Shown here: piece by piece, positions 52,502 to 64,000 of the stretch | Numbering within the stretch: position 1 is the stretch's first letter | How the letters are laid out: every line of letters begins with the position of its first letter | DNA from: Chloroflexota bacterium | Lineage (GTDB): Bacteria; Chloroflexota; Anaerolineae; UBA4142 | Direction: 5' to 3' | Length of the DNA: 64,000 nucleotides | Assembly: GCA_016219275.1 (NCBI GenBank) | Contig: JACRBM010000060.1 | Coordinates: 62,001-126,000 of the forward strand | Program-made: the position numbers and the translations under genes | The notes under the pieces: generated by a model | Told to the model about the DNA's origin: nothing | The model's input: the letters and a program-made list of their open reading frames with translations, nothing else | The model's database searches: none

Positions 52502-55423
52502 TCAAATCTCGCCGTTGGATATTAATTGCAGAAAAATCGCGGCGACCTTTGGATCGAAGTGTTTCCCGGCTTGTTCCCGAATGTAATTGAGCGCGGCTTC
52601 CTCGCTCCACGCGTGACGATAAGGGCGGTCGGAACACAGCGCGTCCCACACGTCCACGACGGCAAAGATGCGCGCGACCAGCGGGATTTGTTCGCCCTTT
52701 AGCCCGCGCGGGTAGCCGGTGCCGTCCCATTTTTCGTGGTGACAGTACGGAATGTCGAGCGCCGGCTTGAGGTACGGAATCGTCGCCAACATTTGGAACG
52801 CGGATTCGGGATGCGAGCGCATGATCTGCCACTCGTCGTCGCTTAGTTTGGTGCTCTTGAGTAGAATTGAATCGGGCACGCCCATTTTGCCAATGTCGTG
52901 CAAGAGCGCGCCGCGCCGGATGTGCACCATGTCTTCCTGAGGAATGTTCATCGCGCGCGCCAGGCGCAAGGTTAGCTCCATCACTCGTTCGGTGTGTCCC
53001 TGAGTCTCCCGATCGCGCAGGTCTAACGCGCGCGACCACCCGTGAATCGTTTCATCGTAGGCAAGCGCGAGTTCGATGTTCGAGCGCTGCAAGTTGTTAA
53101 AGAGGGTGGCGTTGTCTATCGCCACGGCGGCTTGGGTTGCCAGGGTGTTCAAAAATTCGAGCCATTCGGCATTCGCCTCGATGGGCGCGCGATGAAAGAT
53201 TTCCAAAACACCTTTGATGTCGCCTTTGGCGATGAGCGGCACGGCGAAATAATCCACGAAATCTTCGCCGCCGAGCCAGGTCGTACGCGCCAACCCGTTC
53301 GTATCCTTGTCCCAGTGGGACGCCGTGATAATTCGGCGTTCCAGCGCCGCGCGCCCGGCATACCCTTCCCCCAGCCGTAACCGCGTTTGGCTCGTCGCGC
53401 TCGACCGAAAACCGCGTCCCGCCACGTATTCCAAGATATGCGAATGCGGATCGTAGAGCAAGACCTCGGCGGCATCCACGTGGAGTTGCGTTGTGGCTTG
53501 CTCCAAAAAGACGCCAATCGTAAAACGCAAATCGAAACTAGACGTGATGGTGATATCAATTTGGTGCAATGCCTGGGTGCGCTCCAAGCGTCGTTGCGCG
53601 TCATCGTACAGGCGCGCGCGGCGCAAGGTGTTGCCCACCATCTCGCCGATGGTGGCGAGCAAACGCACTTCGGCGGGCGAGAAGGGTTTGGCGTCCGGCG
53701 TGCGCGGGCGCGCGATCATCATCACGCCCAAGAACTCGATCTCGGATTGCAAGGGCACGAACGCCGCGGGACCAATGTGCTCGGTGGCTTCGAGAACCAG
53801 ACGCCGGGGGTCACTGGCATAATCCAACGTGACGTAGGGGCGTCGTGTGTGGAGGACTATTCCACCGATGGTCCCTTCGGTTCCATGCGTGTGCCCTACC
53901 GCGGACGCGATATGTCCTTCGGCAAACGCAATTTTGAATTGATCACTATTGAGTTGTTTCAGCGTGAGCGTCCCAGCATCCGCGTGGAAGATTTCCATGG
54001 TTTGGCGCAACGCGAGTTTCGCAACGTTGTCGGCTCCCTGCGCCTCGCGCAGTCGCGAGGAGACGGCGAAAAGCGCGTCGAGTTCCGTTCGGCTCGCGCG
54101 CTCTTGCTCGTACAAGCGCGCATTCGCAATCGCGAGCGCGGCTTGGTCCGCCAAGCCCTTGAGCAACGCGAGTTCGTCGTCGGCAAACTGACGGATTTCG
54201 CCGAACGAGTAGATGTTCAGCGAACCGATCAGTTCACTGTCGCGTTGCATCGCCCCGCTGACAACCGTGTGAATGTTCAAGTCGGTAAACAAGGGGGTAT
54301 TGGGAAACTCGCGTCTTGCTTGGATGTCCGGAATGACCAAGACAGTGCGCTCCTCTAAAAGGTACCGGTCGAAGAACGCGCGCGGCACGGGCTGGGCGCG
54401 CGCCAGGTACTCCGCCGGCATTCCAAAATCGGCGGCATAGTAAAGCACTTGCTCATGTTCATCGTACAAGGTCACGGTCGCGCCGGGGACGTTGAGCGCG
54501 CGCGCGGTTTCCTCGCACACCGCGCCGAGTACCGCGTTCATATCGAGTTGGGCATTGAGTCGCGCGGCGACCCGCGCCAGCGCCTCCGCGCGTGCGGCGT
54601 TTTTCTGAATTTGCTCTTCGGCGCGCTTGCGTTCGGTAATGTCGCGCGTAATTCCCAGGAATCCAATCATCTGGTCTTGCGCGTCGCGGAGAAATGTAAA
54701 AGTGATTTCCACCCAGACGGTCGAGCCGTCTTTGCAATATTCTTCCAACTCCAGGGTGCGCGATGGCGGCGAATTCTGGTATGCCCTGTCTTCGATAGCC
54801 AGCGCTTCTTGAAAAGCGTTTGCCACCAATTCTAGCGACGCGGGCGTCAGGATCTCGACGACGGTTTGCGCCATGGCTTCTTCGACCGTATAACCACGCA
54901 GCCGGGTGACTGAAGGACTAATATAAGTAAAGTGAAGGTTCATATCCATCGCGAAGATGACATCGCTGGCATTCTCCGCGAGAAGGCGATAACGCGCTTC
55001 GCTGTCCCGGAGCGCCTCCTCGGCGCGTTTCCGTTCCACGCCTACTTGTTTCTCTGCGAGCGCGTGAACCACCGCGGGTCCCAATCGTTTAATGTTTTCT
55101 TTGATGATGTAGTTAGTTGCGCCGGCTTTCATGCACTCGACGGCGATGTCTTCATTCAGCGAGCCAGTCCAGACGACCACGGGCGTAAGCGGAACACGCT
55201 CGAGCGCCAGTTTCAGCGCGGTCATGCCGTCGAAGCGGGGTAGACTATAGTCTGAGAGGATGAGGTCGGGCTGGAATGTTTCGAGCGCGGTCAAATAGTC
55301 TTCGCGCGTCTCCACATTGCGGAACACGCATGGTCCAAGCGACCTGCGAATTTCGCGTTGGGCGAGTTCCGCATCTCTCGACGAATCCTCGACGATCAAT
55401 ATGCGAATCGGTTCATTTGCCAT
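52502..55423 (-). CDS. Response regulator with PAS, GAF and HD-GYP domains
   Basis: The protein has 973 residues. The order is: receiver domain (1-125, phospho-acceptor Asp58 in LILSDYSLPRFDG), PAS/PAC (about 140-270), three GAF-like domains (about 300-450, 465-610, 640-780), and HD-GYP (about 790-965) with LLHDIGKMGVPD and the signature HHEKWDGTGYPRGLKGEQ. HD-GYP domains break down cyclic di-GMP. It ends the operon with the small receiver and the membrane kinase, which should phosphorylate it. No GGDEF cyclase is visible in the window. The start at 55423 (MANEPIRILIVED) is chosen by domain boundary, since no strong ribosome site is seen. Confidence 0.93.
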   Translation of the reverse strand: MANEPIRILIVEDSSRDAELAQREIRRSLGPCVFRNVETREDYLTALETFQPDLILSDYSLPRFDGMTALKLALERVPLTPVVVWTGSLNEDIAVECMKAGATNYIIKENIKRLGPAVVHALAEKQVGVERKRAEEALRDSEARYRLLAENASDVIFAMDMNLHFTYISPSVTRLRGYTVEEAMAQTVVEILTPASLELVANAFQEALAIEDRAYQNSPPSRTLELEEYCKDGSTVWVEITFTFLRDAQDQMIGFLGITRDITERKRAEEQIQKNAARAEALARVAARLNAQLDMNAVLGAVCEETARALNVPGATVTLYDEHEQVLYYAADFGMPAEYLARAQPVPRAFFDRYLLEERTVLVIPDIQARREFPNTPLFTDLNIHTVVSGAMQRDSELIGSLNIYSFGEIRQFADDELALLKGLADQAALAIANARLYEQERASRTELDALFAVSSRLREAQGADNVAKLALRQTMEIFHADAGTLTLKQLNSDQFKIAFAEGHIASAVGHTHGTEGTIGGIVLHTRRPYVTLDYASDPRRLVLEATEHIGPAAFVPLQSEIEFLGVMMIARPRTPDAKPFSPAEVRLLATIGEMVGNTLRRARLYDDAQRRLERTQALHQIDITITSSFDLRFTIGVFLEQATTQLHVDAAEVLLYDPHSHILEYVAGRGFRSSATSQTRLRLGEGYAGRAALERRIITASHWDKDTNGLARTTWLGGEDFVDYFAVPLIAKGDIKGVLEIFHRAPIEANAEWLEFLNTLATQAAVAIDNATLFNNLQRSNIELALAYDETIHGWSRALDLRDRETQGHTERVMELTLRLARAMNIPQEDMVHIRRGALLHDIGKMGVPDSILLKSTKLSDDEWQIMRSHPESAFQMLATIPYLKPALDIPYCHHEKWDGTGYPRGLKGEQIPLVARIFAVVDVWDALCSDRPYRHAWSEEAALNYIREQAGKHFDPKVAAIFLQLISNGEI

Positions 55424-55520
55424 TTTTTGTAACAATCCGGGTGTCATTTCGCGCGTTGCGTCACCACCGACCGAATCTGATATTGCCAAAAGCGAAACCG
55501 GTGAACCATAGACCGCGCGA

Positions 55521-55964
55521 TCATTTAGGCGATTGGTTCACCAACAACCAATAAAAGCCGAGCGTGCTCATGGCATCCAAGAAAACATCGAAATCCACCG
55601 GCTTGACGACGTAACTGTTCGCGCCTAGTTCGTATGCCGCCTTGATGTCCGGGTCTTCGGACGAAGAAGTCACGATGACGACCGGCGTCATGCGGGTCCG
55701 TTCATCGGCTTTGATCGCGCGGAGCACTTCGAGTCCGTTTACTTTGGGCAGTTTCAGGTCTAGCAGTACGACTTTGGGTCCATTCGTCACCGTGCGCTCC
55801 GGGTACTTGCCGCGCGCGAAAATGAAATCCAACGCCTCCGCGCCATCTTCCACTATGTAGAGCCGATTAGCCAGGTTGCGCTTTTTGAAGGCGCGGATCG
55901 TGAGTTCTGCATCGTAGGGGTTATCTTCTACCAGCAAAATATCTACCGCATCGAGTTGACTCAT
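55521..55964 (-). CDS. Single-domain response regulator (Rcp1/CheY-like)
   Basis: The protein has 147 residues and is a receiver domain only: acidic pocket [11 protein letters not shown], phospho-acceptor Asp69 in [13 protein letters not shown], Thr/Ser in [11 protein letters not shown] and Lys in YVVKPVDF. It resembles Rcp1-type partners of phytochrome-like kinases. ATG 55964 overlaps the stop of the kinase (ATGA), so the two are coupled. It may shuttle phosphate between the kinase and the HD-GYP protein. Confidence 0.94.
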
Positions 55965-58717
55965 AATGATGCTCCTTTACGGGGAAGCGTAAAGTAGAAC
56001 GTCGCGCCCTGGTCTACCTCACCCTCGCCCCAAACGTGTCCACCATGACGATGGATCACGCGTTGCACAATCGCCAATCCCACGCCGGTTCCTTCGAATT
56101 CTCTTTCGCTGTGTAAACGCTGGAAGACGCCGAACAATTTGTTAACGTACTGCATTTCAAAGCCCGCGCCATTATCGCGCACATAGTAGATATTTTCATC
56201 TGGGCTTGATGTACTACCGATTTCGATCATCGCGCGGGCGCGCTTGGACGAGAACTTGAGGGCATTGGAGATGAGATTCACCCACACTTGGCGGATCAAG
56301 GTCGGATCGCCCGCGACGGGCAGCAGAGCGGCTACGGCGAAATCAATCCGCGCGCGATTTTCGCGCCGCGTCAATTCATCGAATACTTCGTTCGCCAATG
56401 TCGTCATGTCGAGTGGCGAGGACTGCATTTCCACGCGGCTCAACCGGGAAAAGGCGAGCAGGTCATCAATCAACTGACCCATACGTTGCGCTTCGTCCCG
56501 CACGATGTTGCAGACGCGTTTGCCTTCGGCATCGAGAACGCGTTCGTAATCTTCGAGCAAGATGCGGGTGTAGCCGTCCACTGCGCGCAAGGGCGCGCGC
56601 AAGTCGTGTGAAACGGAGTACGAGAACGCCTCCAATTCCTTGTTCGCGGCTTGGAGTTGCGCGGTGCGTTCGACGACGCGCTGTTCGAGTTCTTCGTTCA
56701 ACCGGCGAATTTCTTCTTCCGCGCGTTTGCGCTCGGTGATGACGTCGAATACCGCGACGAAGAATCCCTTCGCCGGGCTGTACACAGAGATGGAGAACCA
56801 CATCTGCAACGCCGCGACGAATATCTCGAACTTTTCGTGGTTGCCAGACAACGACACCCGCCCATAAATGTTGAATAGCTCTGGGTCGGCTTCGCGGATG
56901 CCGGGGATGACTTCAGTCACACGTTTCCCGGTAACATTCTGCAAGCCCGTCAGAGTCGTGAACGCGTCATTGACCGTGAGATAGATCCAGTCTTTCGGTT
57001 GACCGTTCTCAAAGAGCATCTGGCAATACGCGTAGCCCTCGACCAGGTGCTCGAACAATCCACGATAGCGCTCTTCGCTCGTGCGCAACGCTTCCTCAAC
57101 ACGCTTGCGGTCGGTAATGTCGTCAAAGACCGTATAGACCTGGTAGGGCGCGTCCTCGCCTTGACGGAATAGCGGCACTGCGGTAATGTTGATCGAGCGG
57201 TACTGGCGCTCCCTGGGATTGTACACTTGCATTTCGACATCGCGCACTTGAAGCCCGGTGCGTAACGCGACCATGGCGGGATGGTCCATGCCTGGAAACG
57301 GCGAGCCATCTTCGCGCAGTGTGTCGTGCTCGACGCCGACCGAACTCTCGCCGAGAAACCCCGCTCTAGTCCTGCCGAGAATCCGCTCGGCGGCGGGATT
57401 CAGCGAGATGATCGCGCCTTGCGCGTCCTGATAGACGACGCCTTGGAGCATCGTATCGAACAGACCGCGATAGTGCTGTTCGGATTCGCGCAGCGATTCC
57501 TGGGCGCGCGTCTGCTCGGTGATGTCACGCGCGTAGAGATTGACGTATCCGCCGTTTACAACCGGCACGAGGACAACCGCATAGGTTCGTCCGTTCAGGT
57601 TGGTCTCCAGCGATTGATGCTGTCGTTGCGCCCGCGCCTGCGTCGCGAGCGTTTGCCAATCGTCCGGGACGCCTTCGCCGACTGTTCGATTCCAGGCGCG
57701 CAAGATCGGCGCGCTCGCTTCATTCGCGTACAGAATCACTCCCGCTTCATTCACGCGTAAAATAGGGTTGGGATTTTCGGCGGGGAAGCGCGCCAGGCTC
57801 GCGATTTCCTCTTGCGCCTTTTGGCGTTCTGCCTCGGCGCGATCTATGTTGTGCGAGATGACGCGCGCCACTTGGGTCACGATCATCGCGGTCGCCGCGA
57901 CGAAAAGCAGTGTGAACGACGCCGACAACACCGCGTAATTCAACTCAAACGACGCGGTAATGATCTCGTGCACAAACCCCTGAATCAGCGCGAAGGCGGC
58001 GGTCAACGGGAGAAAGGCGCGCAACATTCTGGCGCGAACAGAGGGACCGGCGAAGGGACGAAGAAAAACGTTGTCCGAACCGGCGGCGGCGACCAACCCA
58101 CAACCCAACAACAGGAATGCGAGAGTCGTGGTTGCCGCGAGCGGGATTATGTCGCCGCCGTAGAGCAAGGGCGTTCCGAAAACATAGCCGATCAGCATCA
58201 CAAAACCCGCGCCGAAAATCAGAGCCCCCAGACCAGCGACCAGGTTTCGGTCAAGTTGGCTAATGCGCTTCCAGAGAACCAACGACAGCGCGATTCCCGC
58301 GAGCAGAAAAAAGACGCCGGTGAGTGGGGACATGCGTCGGAGTGGAAAAGTGCCGAGTTGTTCGGTGACGGGAAACAAGATGTTCTCAAAGGTCAGGTCG
58401 GCTTTCACAAAATACTCGATGAACTTGAGCAGTCCGTACACCGATGCCAGGACGACCAGCGACATGCCGATGGCTCTGATTCGACGCGGCAAACGATCAC
58501 GCGTCGCGCCAAGCAGGAGCAATCCGAACAAAACAAATAACGCTGCAGTGTCGGGCGCCATCGGGATATAGTTGGTGTTGAGACTGGCAAGGACGCGCAG
58601 TCCCGAAATCCAACTGAACAACCCCAACCCGCCAAGCGACGCGACGACGATGCCACATACCGCCGCCGTCCTGCGAAAAGACTCTGGTTTTGATTCGTTC
58701 CCGTGAATGGATTCCAT
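55961..58717 (-). CDS. Multi-PAS membrane sensor histidine kinase
   Basis: The protein has 918 residues. About eight membrane helices occupy residues 15-285. PAS or PAS-like domains follow (about 305-400, 405-530, 535-660), then a coiled-coil segment ([20 protein letters not shown]), HisKA with [20 protein letters not shown], and HATPase_c ([33 protein letters not shown]). The kinase core is of the phytochrome-like type. The membrane region may sense an integral signal such as quinone state or a hydrophobic ligand. AGAGG precedes ATG 58717. It opens an operon with the receiver and HD-GYP genes, behind a leader with a terminator. Confidence 0.93.
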
Positions 58718-58993: not shown

Positions 58994-59170
58994 AATTATA
59001 TGTAAATGCGAAATCGCGATTGCCCGCGCATACCCAACCGCGAGCAAGGACTTGCAAGTGCAAGTCTGCCTGAGTCTCCGCACGATGATGTTCCACACCC
59101 TGATTCCCCGATTCGCTGTTGATGACTTGCTGGCGACAGAAGCATATCCAAAACGCGGTGCGAGGTGGTT

Positions 59171-60502
59171 GTGATACCGGCAGATCCACTCCCAGAGATT
59201 GGGCAAACGAACATTATGATCCAACCCATGGATGAGGCGACCGACATTCCTCCGGAACGATTCCGCGACCAAGTGCAACGACTTGATCGCGCGCTTTCGT
59301 CCCTGGAACGAATTTCGCACGCCCTGACTACGACCACGCAAGGTGTGGATGTCCTGCTCCAAACGATCGTCAAAACGGTTGCTGAGGTATTTGGCAGTCA
59401 ATTCGTCTTTCTCGTGATCAAGAACGGTTACAAAGAAATCAGCGCCATCTATCCGCCGATCAAGGCAAAGGCAGATGGGACCGAAGCGGATTTTTTGGAG
59501 CATGGTTGGTGCCTCACCGAGCAAGCCCTCCTCGGGTCTGGTTCGATGCGCGTCAAATGTATGGCGCGCAAGGGTTGCCCCTGCGAGCAGATTCGTAATG
59601 TTGTGACCGTGCCCATGTCGCGCGATGGAGTACTGGAAGGTTCGATTTCGCTCCAAATTGCCGGGGATCATGACATGGATGAGAATGACGCCTCCACGCT
59701 TCAGATTCTGGCGAACCAAGCAACGGTCGCGATCCAGAATGCCCGGTTGTTCGAAGAGAGTCAGTACCTCCGCGCGCAGGCGGAAGGATTGTACCGCATC
59801 GCGATCGAGCAAAAGAATGAAGCGGAGCGCAAACGGCGCGAGCTGGAAATGGCGCAAGATGAAATTGACGCGATGGAGCGCGAGCAGATCATCAGCACCG
59901 AGCGCGAGCGGATTGCGCGCGAATTGCACGACGACGTCGCGCAGATTTTAAGTAGCATTGGACTGAACCTGGAATGGTGCCGGCAGCATCTGCCGCCCGA
60001 CTCGTCGGTGGAAGAGCGCATCGTTTTGTTAAAACAATTGGCGCGCAACGGCTTGTACGAAATTCGCAACGCGATCCTGGGTATGTCGCCGGTCAGCATC
60101 GCGGAACTGGGACTGGCGCGCGCGTTGGAGAAATTGGTCGGCGATTTTGAAAACATCTCCCGCATCGCCGCCAAGATCGCGGTGAAAGGTGCGCCACGCC
60201 ATCCCGCGACCGGAGTGGAGAACGCGCTCTATCACATTTGCCAGGAAGCCCTCTACAATGTGTTCAAGCACGCGCAAGCCCAGCGGGTCAATGTGGAGTT
60301 GACGTTTGAGCCAGACGCCATGGTGCTGACCGTCGTTGACGATGGCATCGGTATTCGCGCCGGCGCATCCGGGGCGGAATCGTCCGCCGCAAGATTTGGT
60401 CTCAGGAACATGATCGCGCGCGCAGAAGAATTCAAGGGGACATGTACGATTTGCCGAGGCGAAGACAAGGGGACACGCATCATCACGCGTATTCCGGGCT
60501 AG
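59171..60502 (+). CDS. Soluble GAF-domain histidine kinase with four-Cys cluster
   Basis: The protein has about 443 residues. A GAF domain covers about residues 45-200 and carries Cys114, Cys130, Cys136 and Cys138 (spacing Cx15Cx5CxC). A coiled coil (about 205-255) leads to a NarX/NreB-type kinase core with ERERIARELHDDVAQILSSI and HATPase_c (NVFKHAQAQ; DDGIGI; RFGLRNM). Four clustered Cys in a cytoplasmic sensor domain recall Fe-S oxygen or redox sensors such as NreB and AirS. The start is uncertain: GTG 59171 has GAGG five bases upstream, but GTG 59165 and ATG 59216 are possible. Its response regulator follows after 8 bp. Confidence 0.88.
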   Translation: MIPADPLPEIGQTNIMIQPMDEATDIPPERFRDQVQRLDRALSSLERISHALTTTTQGVDVLLQTIVKTVAEVFGSQFVFLVIKNGYKEISAIYPPIKAKADGTEADFLEHGWCLTEQALLGSGSMRVKCMARKGCPCEQIRNVVTVPMSRDGVLEGSISLQIAGDHDMDENDASTLQILANQATVAIQNARLFEESQYLRAQAEGLYRIAIEQKNEAERKRRELEMAQDEIDAMEREQIISTERERIARELHDDVAQILSSIGLNLEWCRQHLPPDSSVEERIVLLKQLARNGLYEIRNAILGMSPVSIAELGLARALEKLVGDFENISRIAAKIAVKGAPRHPATGVENALYHICQEALYNVFKHAQAQRVNVELTFEPDAMVLTVVDDGIGIRAGASGAESSAARFGLRNMIARAEEFKGTCTICRGEDKGTRIITRIPG

Positions 60503-60510
60503 GAGCATTC

Positions 60511-61149
60511 ATGGAGACCATTCGGATTTTATTGGTGGACGATCATCAAGTGGTGCGGCAAGGGTTGCGCTCGCTCCTGGAATTGGAACCTGGCTTGCAA
60601 GTGGTCGGCGAAGCCGGCGCCGGCGCGGAGGCGCTCAACTTGATTGACCGCGTGCACCCCGATATCGTACTCTTGGATCTCAAGCTGACGGACATTAGCG
60701 GGACCGAGGTTTGTCGCCGCGCCACCGCGCAATACCCTGGAATCGCCATTCTGATTTTGACCGCGATCTCCAACGGTCAAGAAGTGCTCGAGTGCGTTGA
60801 CGCCGGCGCGAAAGGGTATCTGCTGAAGGACGTGGATGTCTACGAGTTGACGCGGACGATTCGCGCGATTCACCGAGGCGAATCGGTGCTCGATCCAAAG
60901 GTCACGCAAGCCGTCCTGCAACGCGCGCGCCGCGCATCGAAGGAAGCCGCGCCCGCGCTGACCTTGACCGATCAGGAGCTTGGGATCGTGCGACTGATCG
61001 CGCAGGGACTCACGAACAAGGAAATTGGCGAACGGTTGTTCCTGAGTCCGAACACGATCAAGTTTCACATTAGCGACATTATGCAAAAGCTCAAAGTGAA
61101 GCGACGTGCGGAGGTCGTATTCAAAGCCGCCGGCGAGCGTCTTATTTGA
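60511..61149 (+). CDS. NarL/FixJ-family response regulator
   Basis: The protein has 212 residues. The receiver domain has LLVDDHQVVRQGL and phospho-acceptor Asp56 (IVLLDLKLTDISG), and a LuxR-type HTH covers about residues 145-205 (LIAQGLTNKEIGERLFLSPN). AGGAG precedes ATG 60511. It is the partner of the GAF kinase just upstream. Its targets may include the next operon, whose promoter lies 73 bp downstream. Confidence 0.94.
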   Translation: METIRILLVDDHQVVRQGLRSLLELEPGLQVVGEAGAGAEALNLIDRVHPDIVLLDLKLTDISGTEVCRRATAQYPGIAILILTAISNGQEVLECVDAGAKGYLLKDVDVYELTRTIRAIHRGESVLDPKVTQAVLQRARRASKEAAPALTLTDQELGIVRLIAQGLTNKEIGERLFLSPNTIKFHISDIMQKLKVKRRAEVVFKAAGERLI

Positions 61150-61221
61150 TGCTCGGAGGCGTTACCCATCGCGGTAGCAATAGATTACCCATTCGGCAAG
61201 TCAAATGCACCTTTCTTTCTC

Positions 61222-61251
61222 TTGACAGCGTTGTCAATCGCTTGATACAGT
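61222..61251 (+). promoter_or_regulatory. Promoter of the small ORF / DUF6976 operon
   Basis: TTGACA (61222-61227), an 18 bp spacer and TACAGT (61246-61251) form a promoter. TTGACA and TTGTCAA (61231-61237) form an inverted repeat across the -35 box, a possible operator. The predicted start near 61258 gives a leader of about 240 bases. Confidence 0.65.
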
Positions 61252-61353
61252 ATCACTATGCTACTGGCATCGTCGTTCTAGAGTACTATCCGCGCACGAC
61301 CAATGGTACTCTTGAAAGAACAATCGGGAAAGTATATATTTCAAGTAATCATC

Positions 61354-61427
61354 TAGGGACCTACCTCGACGATGAGGGGCGGACTCGCCTTCACCGTTCT
61401 GGTACCGCGCCAGAACGGTTTTGTTTT
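61354..61427 (+). ncRNA. Shared leader element, copy B, ending in a terminator
   Basis: This element resembles 47472-47540. Its hairpins are CCTC GACGAT GAGG, GGCG GACT CGCC and ACCGTTCTGG / CCAGAACGGT (61393-61402 / 61410-61419), and TTTGTTTT follows. In copy B the last stem is 10 bp and perfect, so it acts as an intrinsic terminator inside the leader, 73 bases before ATG 61500. The loop and flanks differ from copy A while the stem stays the same. It is a candidate cis-regulatory RNA. Confidence 0.6.
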
Positions 61428-61499
61428 ACATGAGGTTCGGCTATCTACGTATTTTCACGGTGATACCTTGGCTGACAAATCTATAAGGAGTAAGTGACG

Positions 61500-61742
61500 A
61501 TGGATGTGCCATCCGTGCAGAACTCGGTTTGGAATGACATTGTTTCCGGCAAGGTCAAGTATCAACTTGATTTCTTGGCGGCGAAAATCATGTTGGGGCG
61601 CTTGATGCTCAGAGTAAAGAACGATTCATCACATAACATGATCGAGAAATGCGGGCAAGAGCTGCATAATCTGTACGCGCAGAATGCGGACTTGCCTTGT
61701 GTGCAGCGGGACTTGACAAAGATTTTTGGAGGTGTACGGTGA
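61500..61742 (+). CDS. Small protein of unknown function upstream of DUF6976
   Basis: The protein has 80 residues: it is helical and charged, with no signal peptide, membrane helix or known motif. It begins MDVPSVQNSVWNDIVSGKVK, and two Cys lie in KCGQEL and LPCVQRD. AAGGAG precedes ATG 61500 (a GTG six bases earlier is possible). The stop overlaps the GTG start of the next gene (GTGA), so it is translationally coupled and probably acts with that protein. I do not recognise a family. Confidence 0.75.
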   Translation: MDVPSVQNSVWNDIVSGKVKYQLDFLAAKIMLGRLMLRVKNDSSHNMIEKCGQELHNLYAQNADLPCVQRDLTKIFGGVR

Positions 61743-62737
61743 GCGGATGCATGCAAGAAATTGCTCAAGTAAAAGAAAAGATCGCGCGCGGCGAAAAACT
61801 ATTGCTGGCGGGCGATGAAAATATTCTCAAGCAACTTCCGCCGGGCGACTGGATCGGCGGAACGATTCCGTACTTTATGACGGAACAAGGCGGCTTGTCC
61901 ACGCAAGACCAGGTCTATGTCACCGAACTGCCAAGCTTTGTTTCCAACATCGCGATTCAGGTCTACGATAAAGCCGCGTTGCCGCGCGTGTACAGCGACG
62001 CCGCCAAGTACGGCTTTAGCATCATCATCATCCCGGCATCCAGCGCGACGCATCTCTCCTTTGCGCTGAACGCGCCGAACTATCAGGATTTTGCGATCCG
62101 ACCTTTGATCGGTTGGATCTCGGGTGTGCACCTCAACGACCTGGGCAAACTCACGCCGAAAGTGTTTAGCGGTCAATCCAATATGGCATTGGAAGATAGC
62201 GCCGTCGTGATGCACGTCACCTTGCCGCCTAATCGAGTTGCCGATGTCGGGATTCTGAATATCTTTGAACAGAGCGACGGCGACACCATCACGTTCCCGA
62301 ATGACGGTTTCAGCGCACACCAAGTCTTGGTCAACGGAGTCGAGACCAATTTTGCGGACTATATCGCCGCCAAACATCTGGATACGCGACTCCCTCTCGT
62401 GGCGGATTATTATGGCGCGATGGTGAACGTCAGTTTTCAAAGTGTGGACGCGGCAAATCGCCAGGTTCTATTCTACGCGCCGGTTTTTGCGGGTCTGCGC
62501 TACAAGCACGCCAAGCCCATCGCCAATTATGTGCAGCAATTCACCTCGCAAATGCCGACGAACCTGGGCAAGCAGATCGTTTTCTCGTGCAACTGCATTT
62601 TGAATTATCTGTATTCCGAACTCGAAGGAAAACAGACGGGAGACATTACGGGACCGATTACCTTTGGCGAGGTAGCGTACCAATTGCTCAATCAAACGAT
62701 GGTGTATCTCAACATCATCGAGCTAGGCGCGGGATAG
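61739..62737 (+). CDS. DUF6976-like protein with FIST-C-like ending
   Basis: The protein has 332 residues. N-terminal KIARGEKLLLAGDENILKQL and PPGDWIGGTIPYFMTEQGG are recognisable for the DUF6976 group. The C-terminal part (IVFSCNCILNYLYSELEG ... ITFGEVAYQLLNQTMVYLNI) resembles the FIST_C sensory domain, which has a Cys, a GE pair and an NQT motif in the same order. FIST domains are thought to bind small ligands in signalling. The start is GTG 61739, with GGAGG seven bases upstream. A role as a soluble sensor is an inference. Confidence 0.65.
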   Translation: MSGCMQEIAQVKEKIARGEKLLLAGDENILKQLPPGDWIGGTIPYFMTEQGGLSTQDQVYVTELPSFVSNIAIQVYDKAALPRVYSDAAKYGFSIIIIPASSATHLSFALNAPNYQDFAIRPLIGWISGVHLNDLGKLTPKVFSGQSNMALEDSAVVMHVTLPPNRVADVGILNIFEQSDGDTITFPNDGFSAHQVLVNGVETNFADYIAAKHLDTRLPLVADYYGAMVNVSFQSVDAANRQVLFYAPVFAGLRYKHAKPIANYVQQFTSQMPTNLGKQIVFSCNCILNYLYSELEGKQTGDITGPITFGEVAYQLLNQTMVYLNIIELGAG

Positions 62738-62763
62738 CCAGCGGCGGATCGCAATGGGAAAGG

Positions 62764-62792
62764 GCAACCTGGCACACGCAGGTTGCTCTTTT
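62764..62792 (+). terminator. Intrinsic terminator after the DUF6976 gene
   Basis: GCAACCTG (62764-62771) pairs with CAGGTTGC (62779-62786) around a 7-base loop; TCTTTT follows. It separates the DUF6976 gene from the next gene on the same strand. Confidence 0.8.
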
Positions 62793-62855
62793 CAATGATG
62801 TTCGATTCAGCCAGGATCAAGACCGCGCACAAAACCCGCGACGAATAGGTGAACG

Positions 62856-63290
62856 ATGCAAGATATTGATTACGAGATCATTTTGAAATCATTGGTCTTT
62901 GTGGCAGATGGTTTGGCAAAAGACCTGGGAGAGAACGGCGCGCGCGCGTTGCTGCGGCAGAGCGGACATCACGCGGCGATCAACCTGGTCGGGGAATGGC
63001 ACGAGCAAGTGGATGTCGCCGAGGCGGTGGCGCAAGCGTGCCCCGTGCTCGAAGCCCTGGGGTTCGCACAGCAAGTCAACCTCCTCGATGCGACGCACGT
63101 CGTCGTACGTGGCAACGTGATTACCGCGATGGTGGAACAACTGGGCTTGCCTACCGCGCGCCATCCGATTTATTATTATGCCATCGGCTTGTTCGAAGGA
63201 CTGGTGTACGTGATCAGCAAAACACACGTTGGTATCGTGCGGCACGAGCTCAAGGACGATAGCGAAGTCTGGACACTGGGCGATTATTGA
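62856..63290 (+). CDS. Unknown protein, possibly V4R-like ligand-binding domain
   Basis: The protein has 144 residues and no signal or membrane helix. It has ARALLRQSGHHAAINLVGEW in the first half and YYYAIGLFEGLVYVISKTHV near the end, a pattern that recalls V4R/heme-NO-like ligand pockets (two helices, then a GLxEGL strand). The match is weak. A start at 62856 has no strong ribosome site; GTGAACG lies just before it. It may be co-regulated with the DUF6976 gene by read-through of the terminator between them. Confidence 0.6.
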   Translation: MQDIDYEIILKSLVFVADGLAKDLGENGARALLRQSGHHAAINLVGEWHEQVDVAEAVAQACPVLEALGFAQQVNLLDATHVVVRGNVITAMVEQLGLPTARHPIYYYAIGLFEGLVYVISKTHVGIVRHELKDDSEVWTLGDY

Positions 63291-63296
63291 TTAGCG

Positions 63297-63333
63297 AACC
63301 TTGCGAAGGTCGTAAACCTTCGCAAGGTTTTTT
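63297..63333 (+). terminator. Intrinsic terminator after the unknown gene
   Basis: AACCTTGCGAAGG pairs perfectly with CCTTCGCAAGGTT around a 7-base loop, with TTTTTT at the end. It lies seven bases after the stop at 63290. Confidence 0.92.
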
Positions 63334-63349
63334 GCGAGTTGGCAAATTG

Positions 63350-63385
63350 AAAAGCGAGACGCGATATTTGTCGCGTCTCGCTTTT
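63350..63385. terminator. Bidirectional terminator before the MoaD gene end
   Basis: AAAAGCGAGACGCGA (63350-63364) pairs perfectly with TCGCGTCTCGCTTTT (63371-63385). It serves the leftward MoaD/SPASM operon, whose stop is at 63390, and backs up the rightward terminator just before it. Confidence 0.9.
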
Positions 63386-63389
63386 CGTC

Positions 63390-63632
63390 TCACCCGCCGG
63401 CGACCGGCGGAAACATTCCCAGGTCTTCGCCGTCGCAAAGTACGTGATCGTCTTCGACAGCCCTTCCGCCACTGAACACCAATTTCACAGTGTCAGGCGG
63501 AATGCCGAGGTTGGCGATCAGTCGCTTCACCGTGGCTCCCGCCGGCAGATAAACGACATATGTCTCGCCTATTTTTAGGTGGGGTTGGTATTGTCGCAAT
63601 GTCGCGTATAGCCGAACTCGGACTTGGATCAT
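63390..63632 (-). CDS. MoaD/ThiS-family sulfur carrier
   Basis: The protein has 80 residues with a ubiquitin-like fold: IQVRVRLYATLRQY at the start and LGMFPPVAGG at the end, with the Gly-Gly tail that is adenylated and thiocarboxylated to donate sulfur. MoaD-like proteins of this kind often accompany tungsten aldehyde oxidoreductases in anaerobes. It is the last gene on the minus strand after a radical-SAM maturase (44 bp gap). This supports molybdopterin/tungstopterin cofactor assembly. Confidence 0.9.
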   Translation of the reverse strand: MIQVRVRLYATLRQYQPHLKIGETYVVYLPAGATVKRLIANLGIPPDTVKLVFSGGRAVEDDHVLCDGEDLGMFPPVAGG

Positions 63633-63676
63633 TGTCGCGTTACCTTCTACTCAACCCAGACCCGTGGGGTCTTTTT

Positions 63677-64000
63677 TCATGGACACCGAATTATGTCTTG
63701 CGCCCACAAGCAGTCCGCGCAAGAGGGATTCCAGCCCCAGCATCCTTCGTTGCGTTCGCGCAAGTCGCACGTTTCGCGCAGATCGCAATCGGGACAAGAG
63801 GGAAAGTGATAACTACGCACTTCGTTGCGATAGCGGACGTAATCTTCGGACATCCAGGTTTCCGCCAAGGATTGCTCATTCACATTGCCCAGGATGTATC
63901 GGTTGACATGTTTTTCCTTGCCGTCCACTGCCAAGTACGTATAGTTGTGCGATAACGCTAAACATGGCGCGACGCCGCCGTCCCAGCCAATGACGCTTGA
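63677..64000 (-). CDS. Radical-SAM/SPASM cofactor maturase, C-terminus only (partial)
   Basis: The frame enters from the right edge with GWDGGVAPCLALSHNYTYLA and ends IIRCP with stop at 63677. The Cys pattern (GVAPC; CPDCDLRETCDLR; GCWGWNPSCADCLW) is the SPASM domain that binds auxiliary Fe-S clusters. The ending NPSCADCLWAQDIIRCP fits tungsten-cofactor oxidoreductase maturases. Only about 107 codons are present here; the catalytic radical-SAM part lies beyond the window. The MoaD gene follows. Confidence 0.8.
   Translation of the reverse strand, partial: SSVIGWDGGVAPCLALSHNYTYLAVDGKEKHVNRYILGNVNEQSLAETWMSEDYVRYRNEVRSYHFPSCPDCDLRETCDLRERNEGCWGWNPSCADCLWAQDIIRCP

Follow-up and report, generated by a model that had tools for sequence, protein, structure and literature searches.

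What do three short genes that follow a two-component system in a Chloroflexota genome encode, and do their products act together? The stretch of DNA analyzed here (the window, 64,000 nt) comprises positions 62,001 to 126,000 of the forward strand of contig JACRBM010000060.1 from a Chloroflexota bacterium (Anaerolineae; UBA4142; assembly GCA_016219275.1, here G000). A preliminary description made from the sequence had proposed that a small protein, a DUF6976 protein with a FIST-like fold, and a V4R-like protein form a ligand-sensing set.

Organization of the locus

All three open reading frames were confirmed as genuine genes, and all are on the plus strand. The first (61500-61742) encodes an 80-residue protein, and the second (61739-62737) encodes the DUF6976 protein, which scored 477 bits with Pfam PF22396 (cut-off 27). 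The two genes overlap by GTGA at 61739-61742, as had been described, and the GTG at 61739 is the start codon of the DUF6976 gene. The 4-nt overlap was also found in both other genomes of the same family having the pair, there as ATGA. The third gene (62856-63290) encodes a protein of 144 residues and is referred to below as gene 3.

Upstream and on the same strand are genes identified by profile matches as encoding a sensor histidine kinase of GAF-HisKA_3-HATPase architecture (59165-60502) and a LuxR/GerE-type response regulator (60511-61149, with the start set at the second ATG of the open reading frame). The best NCBIfam models for these proteins were MadS and MadR, respectively, but both scores were under the curated cut-offs (239 bits versus 500 for the kinase, and 228 bits versus 300 for the regulator), and we refer to the proteins as MadS-like and MadR-like. 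A C-x5-C-x-C cluster and a further Cys in the GAF domain of the kinase are kept in three family genomes (the window's, L017, and L018), and the cluster is absent from the L085-type kinase; judged from sequence, it is a possible Fe-S or thiol redox site. The region upstream of the kinase is dense in signaling genes, including, just upstream on the minus strand (52502-58717), genes that we take from reading their translations to encode further large kinase-like and receiver proteins.

The leader of approximately 350 bp between the response regulator and the small gene was found to contain the elements given in the preliminary description. These are a promoter-like site from the promoter scan (TTGACA-18-TACAGT, 61222-61251, plus strand), an operator-like palindromic repeat, TTGATACAGTATCA, that overlaps the -10 element (61242-61255), and a hairpin followed by a T-run, resembling an intrinsic terminator, from the terminator scan (61393-61419, plus strand). 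All three are kept in the related genome G010, but are absent from G012, where the small gene begins about 29 nt past the stop codon of the response regulator. A single promoter-like site is weak evidence, because the scan found 8 such sites compared to 2.1 expected in shuffles. The repeat was also considered as a regulon-wide site and rejected, as exact matches were found once in G000 and once in G010, in each case at this locus, with few one-mismatch hits elsewhere. An Rfam search of 61100-63700 returned sub-threshold matches only, the best at 26.5 bits versus a gathering score of 54, and revealed no known riboswitch in the leader.

Another terminator had been placed between the DUF6976 gene and gene 3. 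A hairpin is indeed found there (62754-62796, plus strand; arms 62754-62771 and 62779-62796; z -3.6), and it is present in G010 as well, but the terminator label is uncertain because the T-run falls within the stem and the hairpin was not listed by the terminator scan. A strong hairpin with a T-run lies 3' of gene 3 (63297-63329, plus strand). Beyond it on the minus strand are genes for a MoaD/ThiS-like sulfur carrier (63390-63632; profile matches) and part of a radical SAM/SPASM maturase (63678-64000; TIGR04317, 420.7 bits against a cut-off of 380) that continues past the end of the window.

The 80-residue protein and DUF6976

The first two genes encode the two parts of a single unit. When named genome contigs were scanned, 293 related stretches were obtained, and in 76 of the best 80, from many phyla, the small domain was either encoded directly upstream of DUF6976 or fused to it, the exceptions being L034, L036, L050, and L061. 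Among 149 relative genomes, a set that contains the window's own, seven were found to have the small domain and the same seven to have DUF6976. In four related genomes the small protein and DUF6976 form a single 412-residue open reading frame, and comparison of the loci identified the 80-residue protein as the N-terminal domain of the fused homologues. A 79-row tree of DUF6976 implies at least four changes of the fused state, judged by well-supported branches, and it places the window and its two closest relatives, which have split genes, as the sister group of a clade comprising 15 fused rows. These 79 rows (alignment A3) consisted of the window and the DUF6976 rows from the best 80 of 293 loci, 82 in number, less L036, L075, L086, and L093; an earlier structure alignment, A2, which included solo small proteins, was discarded because MAFFT misplaced those rows. 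That the first gene encodes a domain of the second gene's protein had not been recognized in the preliminary description, and the pair is more conserved than had been supposed.

The small domain matched no Pfam or NCBIfam family. In some Gammaproteobacteria it occurs in four or five copies within a longer upstream protein (L071 3467-5311, L068 8050-9948, L090 8127-9956, and also L084 and L067), with DUF6976 encoded next and then, in several, REC, CheW, and MCP genes. In L071, a weak ISL3-transposase-like zinc ribbon/HTH precedes the copies of the small domain. Two fused DUF6976 genes per locus were seen in L021 and L023.

DUF6976 had no match to Pfam FIST (PF08495) or FIST_C (PF10442) at E values up to 1, and in sequence searches of the PDB its profile retrieved nothing below E 0.29, while a search with one FIST protein retrieved no match. 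The fold was instead examined with an AlphaFold2 model of L085, a fused homologue that shares 69% identity with DUF6976 of the window; the model was built from a 79-row alignment and had a mean pLDDT of 93.4 and a pTM of 0.86. The four best PDB chains found by Foldseek with this model were all FBXO22. VIA-align superposed the model on these with Z scores of 12.0, 11.9, 11.9, and 11.4 over 217-228 residues (rmsd 3.7-3.9), at approximately 11% identity. The next unrelated rows, cyanuric acid hydrolases and barbiturases, had Z scores near 5 (best 5.4), and the small domain part of the model gave weak structural rows only, to lambda P fragments at Z of about 4. In PMC11185555, the FBXO22 domain is named FIST, chorismatases and cyanuric acid hydrolases are given as its fold neighbors, and the FIST domain is described as sensory; no obvious ligand pocket was seen in the FBXO22 domain. 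The structural comparison bears out the earlier guess of a FIST-like fold and supports assignment of DUF6976 as a divergent FIST domain by predicted fold. FBXO22 (PDB 8ua3, 8s7d) differs in being a eukaryotic ubiquitin-ligase subunit, with an F-box where DUF6976 has the small helical partner.

Comparison of the DUF6976 profile with FIST proteins gave p values of 0.005 over 336 columns and 0.0016 over 100 columns at probabilities of just 7-16%; the alignment was colinear though weak, with the FSCN, (F/Y)GE, and LxNQT (L(H/N)NQT) motifs in register. DUF6976 thus has the C-terminal Cys (FSCN) and Glu (GE) motifs that are frequent among FIST proteins and, like Chloroflexota Pfam FIST/FIST_C proteins, an L(H/N)xxT motif, whereas its WIGG and CNC motifs are its own. 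Across the 79 sequences 40 columns are invariant. All 79 rows have the aligned Cys, another Cys two positions after it, and the Glu, which in the window are Cys284, Cys286, and Glu311 (plus-strand codons at 62588, 62594, and 62669). A profile of 13 FIST proteins matched FBXO22 with E 4.6e-5 and aligned the FIST Cys and Glu with residues 326 and 362, as counted by hand from the printed alignment, which puts Cys326 and Glu362 of FBXO22 in register with the Cys and Glu conserved in DUF6976. Ordinary bacterial FIST proteins commonly have the FIST Cys as well.

The window's genome additionally encodes an ordinary FIST_C protein (L139, G000:C68:30191-30580), and DUF6976 is therefore not its sole FIST-fold protein. 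In Desulfopila aestuarii (L037, 11099-12265), an ordinary FIST protein adjoins DUF6976 and is followed by two kinase genes.

Gene 3 and its distribution

The gene 3 product had no Pfam match, V4R (PF02830) included, at E values up to 10, and a PDB sequence search with its profile found none. One model, built from three sequences, reached a pLDDT of 76.8, with the other four at 37-52. Over most of its length this model matched TRAPP/Bet3, the MopR/PoxR aromatic sensor domain, H-NOX, and the vinyl-4-reductase MJ1460; the listed rows for V4R/TRAPP/MopR folds (PDB 5kbi, 2oso, 2cfh) had Z scores from 13.5 to 8.0 over 121-141 residues. The V4R-like fold anticipated for this protein is thus borne out at the level of the predicted model. 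Profile comparison with V4R was colinear, with a probability of only 10.7% and p 0.003. Unlike the related V4R proteins L108-L118, the gene 3 protein lacks a C-terminal Cys, its single Cys being at position 62.

Relatives of gene 3 were detected in 5 of the 396 class genomes and 2 of the 400 phylum genomes examined, with the window's genome counted in both. Together with the pair, gene 3 was found at only two of the best 80 of 293 loci (L017 and L018), both from the window's own family; counting the window, all three family genomes found to hold DUF6976 have it. Elsewhere, a relative in G388 (L099 3778-5640) is directly 5' of genes that, from reading, we presume to encode HypA-/HypB-like hydrogenase maturation proteins, and another in G005, which lacks DUF6976, has genes for a GAF kinase and a response regulator as neighbors. 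Gene 3 is plausible as a sensor domain, but is not a constant partner of the pair. The expectation that the three genes would be found together elsewhere thus held for the first two but failed for gene 3 outside the window's family, and the proposed three-gene set exists as a lineage-specific arrangement only.

Genomic neighborhood and a candidate auxiliary sensor

Signaling genes (REC, HATPase, MCP, CheW, or GGDEF, using profiles seeded from the 80 loci) are enriched around the pair. At the best 80 of 293 loci, 60 of 492 open reading frames within 3 kb encoded signaling proteins, compared to 21 of 435 at 5 kb or more (odds ratio 2.7, p 4e-5), where the reading frames were called by a greedy length rule that includes shadow frames, those within one locus are non-independent, and the near and far limits were chosen after an initial look. 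On the same strand as the pair the counts were 52 of 263 near versus 9 of 192 far (p 1e-6), and at the 61 loci outside Chloroflexota, a label assigned by hand, 41 of 368 versus 18 of 326 (p 0.0055). Counted by locus, 32 of these best 80 had a signaling gene within 3 kb (12 of 19 in Chloroflexota and 20 of 61 in others), which leaves 41 of the 61 non-Chloroflexota loci with none at that distance. A histidine kinase adjoins the pair in the window and at many Chloroflexota loci, but not at most loci elsewhere in this sample. The enrichment supports the sensory reading that had been proposed.

The pair in Chloroflexota frequently has as neighbors a histidine kinase together with a response regulator and an aldehyde ferredoxin oxidoreductase (AOR) of the tungsten type. 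AORs act on aldehydes. An AOR gene was present within 2 kb at 8 of 19 Chloroflexota loci versus 0 of 61 others among the best 80 of 293. The distance from the pair to an AOR gene is approximately 3 kb in both the window's genome and G012; the former carries 10 AOR genes over its 6.16 Mb, from which we estimate a chance of about 1% that a given site has one no more than 3 kb away. A tungsten-cofactor AOR gene set was found beside the locus, comprising the AOR, the TIGR04317 tungsten-oxidoreductase radical SAM maturase, and MoaD-like genes, including the sulfur carrier gene noted above; the AOR and a second MoaD-like gene are beyond the window edge, after the maturase. This set, mostly outside the window, had not been recognized previously. 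In Thermoflexales (L010, L011, and L012), fused DUF6976 is beside a YqeC-MocA fusion and DVU_1557-type genes instead, in clusters with what from reading we take to be XdhC-like and molybdate-transport-like genes.

According to PMC12570481, NosP is a FIST protein whose gene neighbors that of a kinase, and on binding NO at its heme NosP controls the autophosphorylation of this kinase. The DUF6976 pair resembles NosP in that a FIST-fold protein has its gene next to those of a histidine kinase and a response regulator, in an auxiliary-sensor arrangement. It differs in having a near-obligate helical partner, in the LuxR-type transcription factor that is the response regulator at the window locus, and in sequence, with the NCBIfam NosP model giving DUF6976 11.6 bits against a cut-off of 450. 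We consider the pair a variant within the FIST auxiliary-sensor kind, filed by fold and arrangement only, because the Pfam FIST and NosP sequence tests failed.

Near-obligate pairing, repeated fusion, the FIST fold, the enrichment of signaling genes, and the recurring kinase, regulator, and AOR neighborhood in Chloroflexota are the computed support for a reading to which we give an even chance, in which the pair would be a bipartite auxiliary sensor that tunes the adjacent kinase. The all-helical 80-residue domain, as an obligate part of this NosP-like sensor, would join the divergent FIST domain, and the FIST part might bind a small molecule close to the invariant Cys and Glu. By analogy with NosP, the state of the ligand would change autophosphorylation of the GAF kinase, and the response regulator would then adjust the nearby tungsten-type AOR and cofactor genes. 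Gene 3, with its predicted V4R fold, could provide a second, lineage-specific ligand-binding input.

Other functions for the pair can be envisioned. The AOR, MoaD-like, MoaA-like, or YqeC/DVU_1557-type genes near the pair at many Chloroflexota loci would also be in keeping with an accessory or maturation factor of tungsten or molybdenum enzymes, whose CNC motif would hold metal or sulfur through its two Cys. We think this unlikely, given that AOR within 2 kb is missing at every one of the 61 non-Chloroflexota loci among the best 80 of 293, that signaling genes are enriched at those loci as well, and that the domain with this fold has been described as sensory. Somewhat less probable still is an enzymatic role, in which DUF6976 would belong to the cyanuric acid hydrolase/chorismatase ("Toblerone") fold class and the small protein would serve as a regulatory or structural subunit. 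Enzymes of this type are the next-best structural rows, and 40 invariant columns are, in our judgment, above expectation for a pure sensor domain; on the other hand, FBXO22 is by far the best match (Z of 12 versus 5.4 for the enzymes), and no conserved metabolic neighbor is apparent across phyla at the best 80 of 293 loci.

The arrangement of the genes invites two further readings. The order kinase, regulator, small gene, DUF6976, and V4R-fold gene is kept in the three family f1 genomes holding DUF6976, as might be expected if all three genes were one conserved ligand-sensing system. We find this improbable in view of the scarcity of the V4R-fold gene beside the pair across the sampled loci, and the HypA/HypB-like or kinase and regulator genes that adjoin its relatives elsewhere. 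A small first gene overlapping a larger second one is also reminiscent of a toxin-antitoxin-like pair, but nothing beyond the arrangement favors such a function, and with the two genes repeatedly fused and the larger protein having a predicted FIST fold we regard it as extremely improbable. The interpretation given in the preliminary description is, overall, partly supported.

A more specific form of the auxiliary sensor reading concerns its ligand. According to PMC13316043 and PMC11208438, aldehydes form a reversible adduct on Cys326 of FBXO22, replacement of Glu362 ablates aldehyde-degrader-dependent activity, and the ligands concerned are synthetic. By analogy, the alignment of DUF6976 with this residue pair suggests, without showing, an aldehyde sensor. 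The invariant FIST Cys, together with the Glu, might bind aldehydes covalently through a reversible hemithioacetal, with the signal in Chloroflexota passing via the kinase and regulator to AOR, through a chemistry that would be ancient and general to FIST domains. We hold this doubtful: the FBXO22 ligands are synthetic, loci outside Chloroflexota are without a close AOR, and the Cys is widespread among FIST proteins. The conservation of Cys and Glu and the proximity of AOR are nonetheless a coincidence worth testing. In a limited literature collection, we found no publication naming DUF6976 or PF22396, none linking FIST to AOR, and none on a tungsten-AOR kinase.

FIST domains are called sensory, yet to our knowledge most have no known ligand. 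A family of unknown function from many phyla is now placed in the FIST fold, as predicted by modeling, with a near-obligate second part. A signaling partner can be named as likely, and so, within a single phylum, can a target enzyme of known substrate class; together these lead to a short list of ligands and to a kinase assay. If the aligned Cys is reactive, bacterial FIST sensors would be linked to the FBXO22 Cys used for targeted protein degradation. If the aldehyde reading is true, the substrate of AOR would control the enzyme in Chloroflexota.
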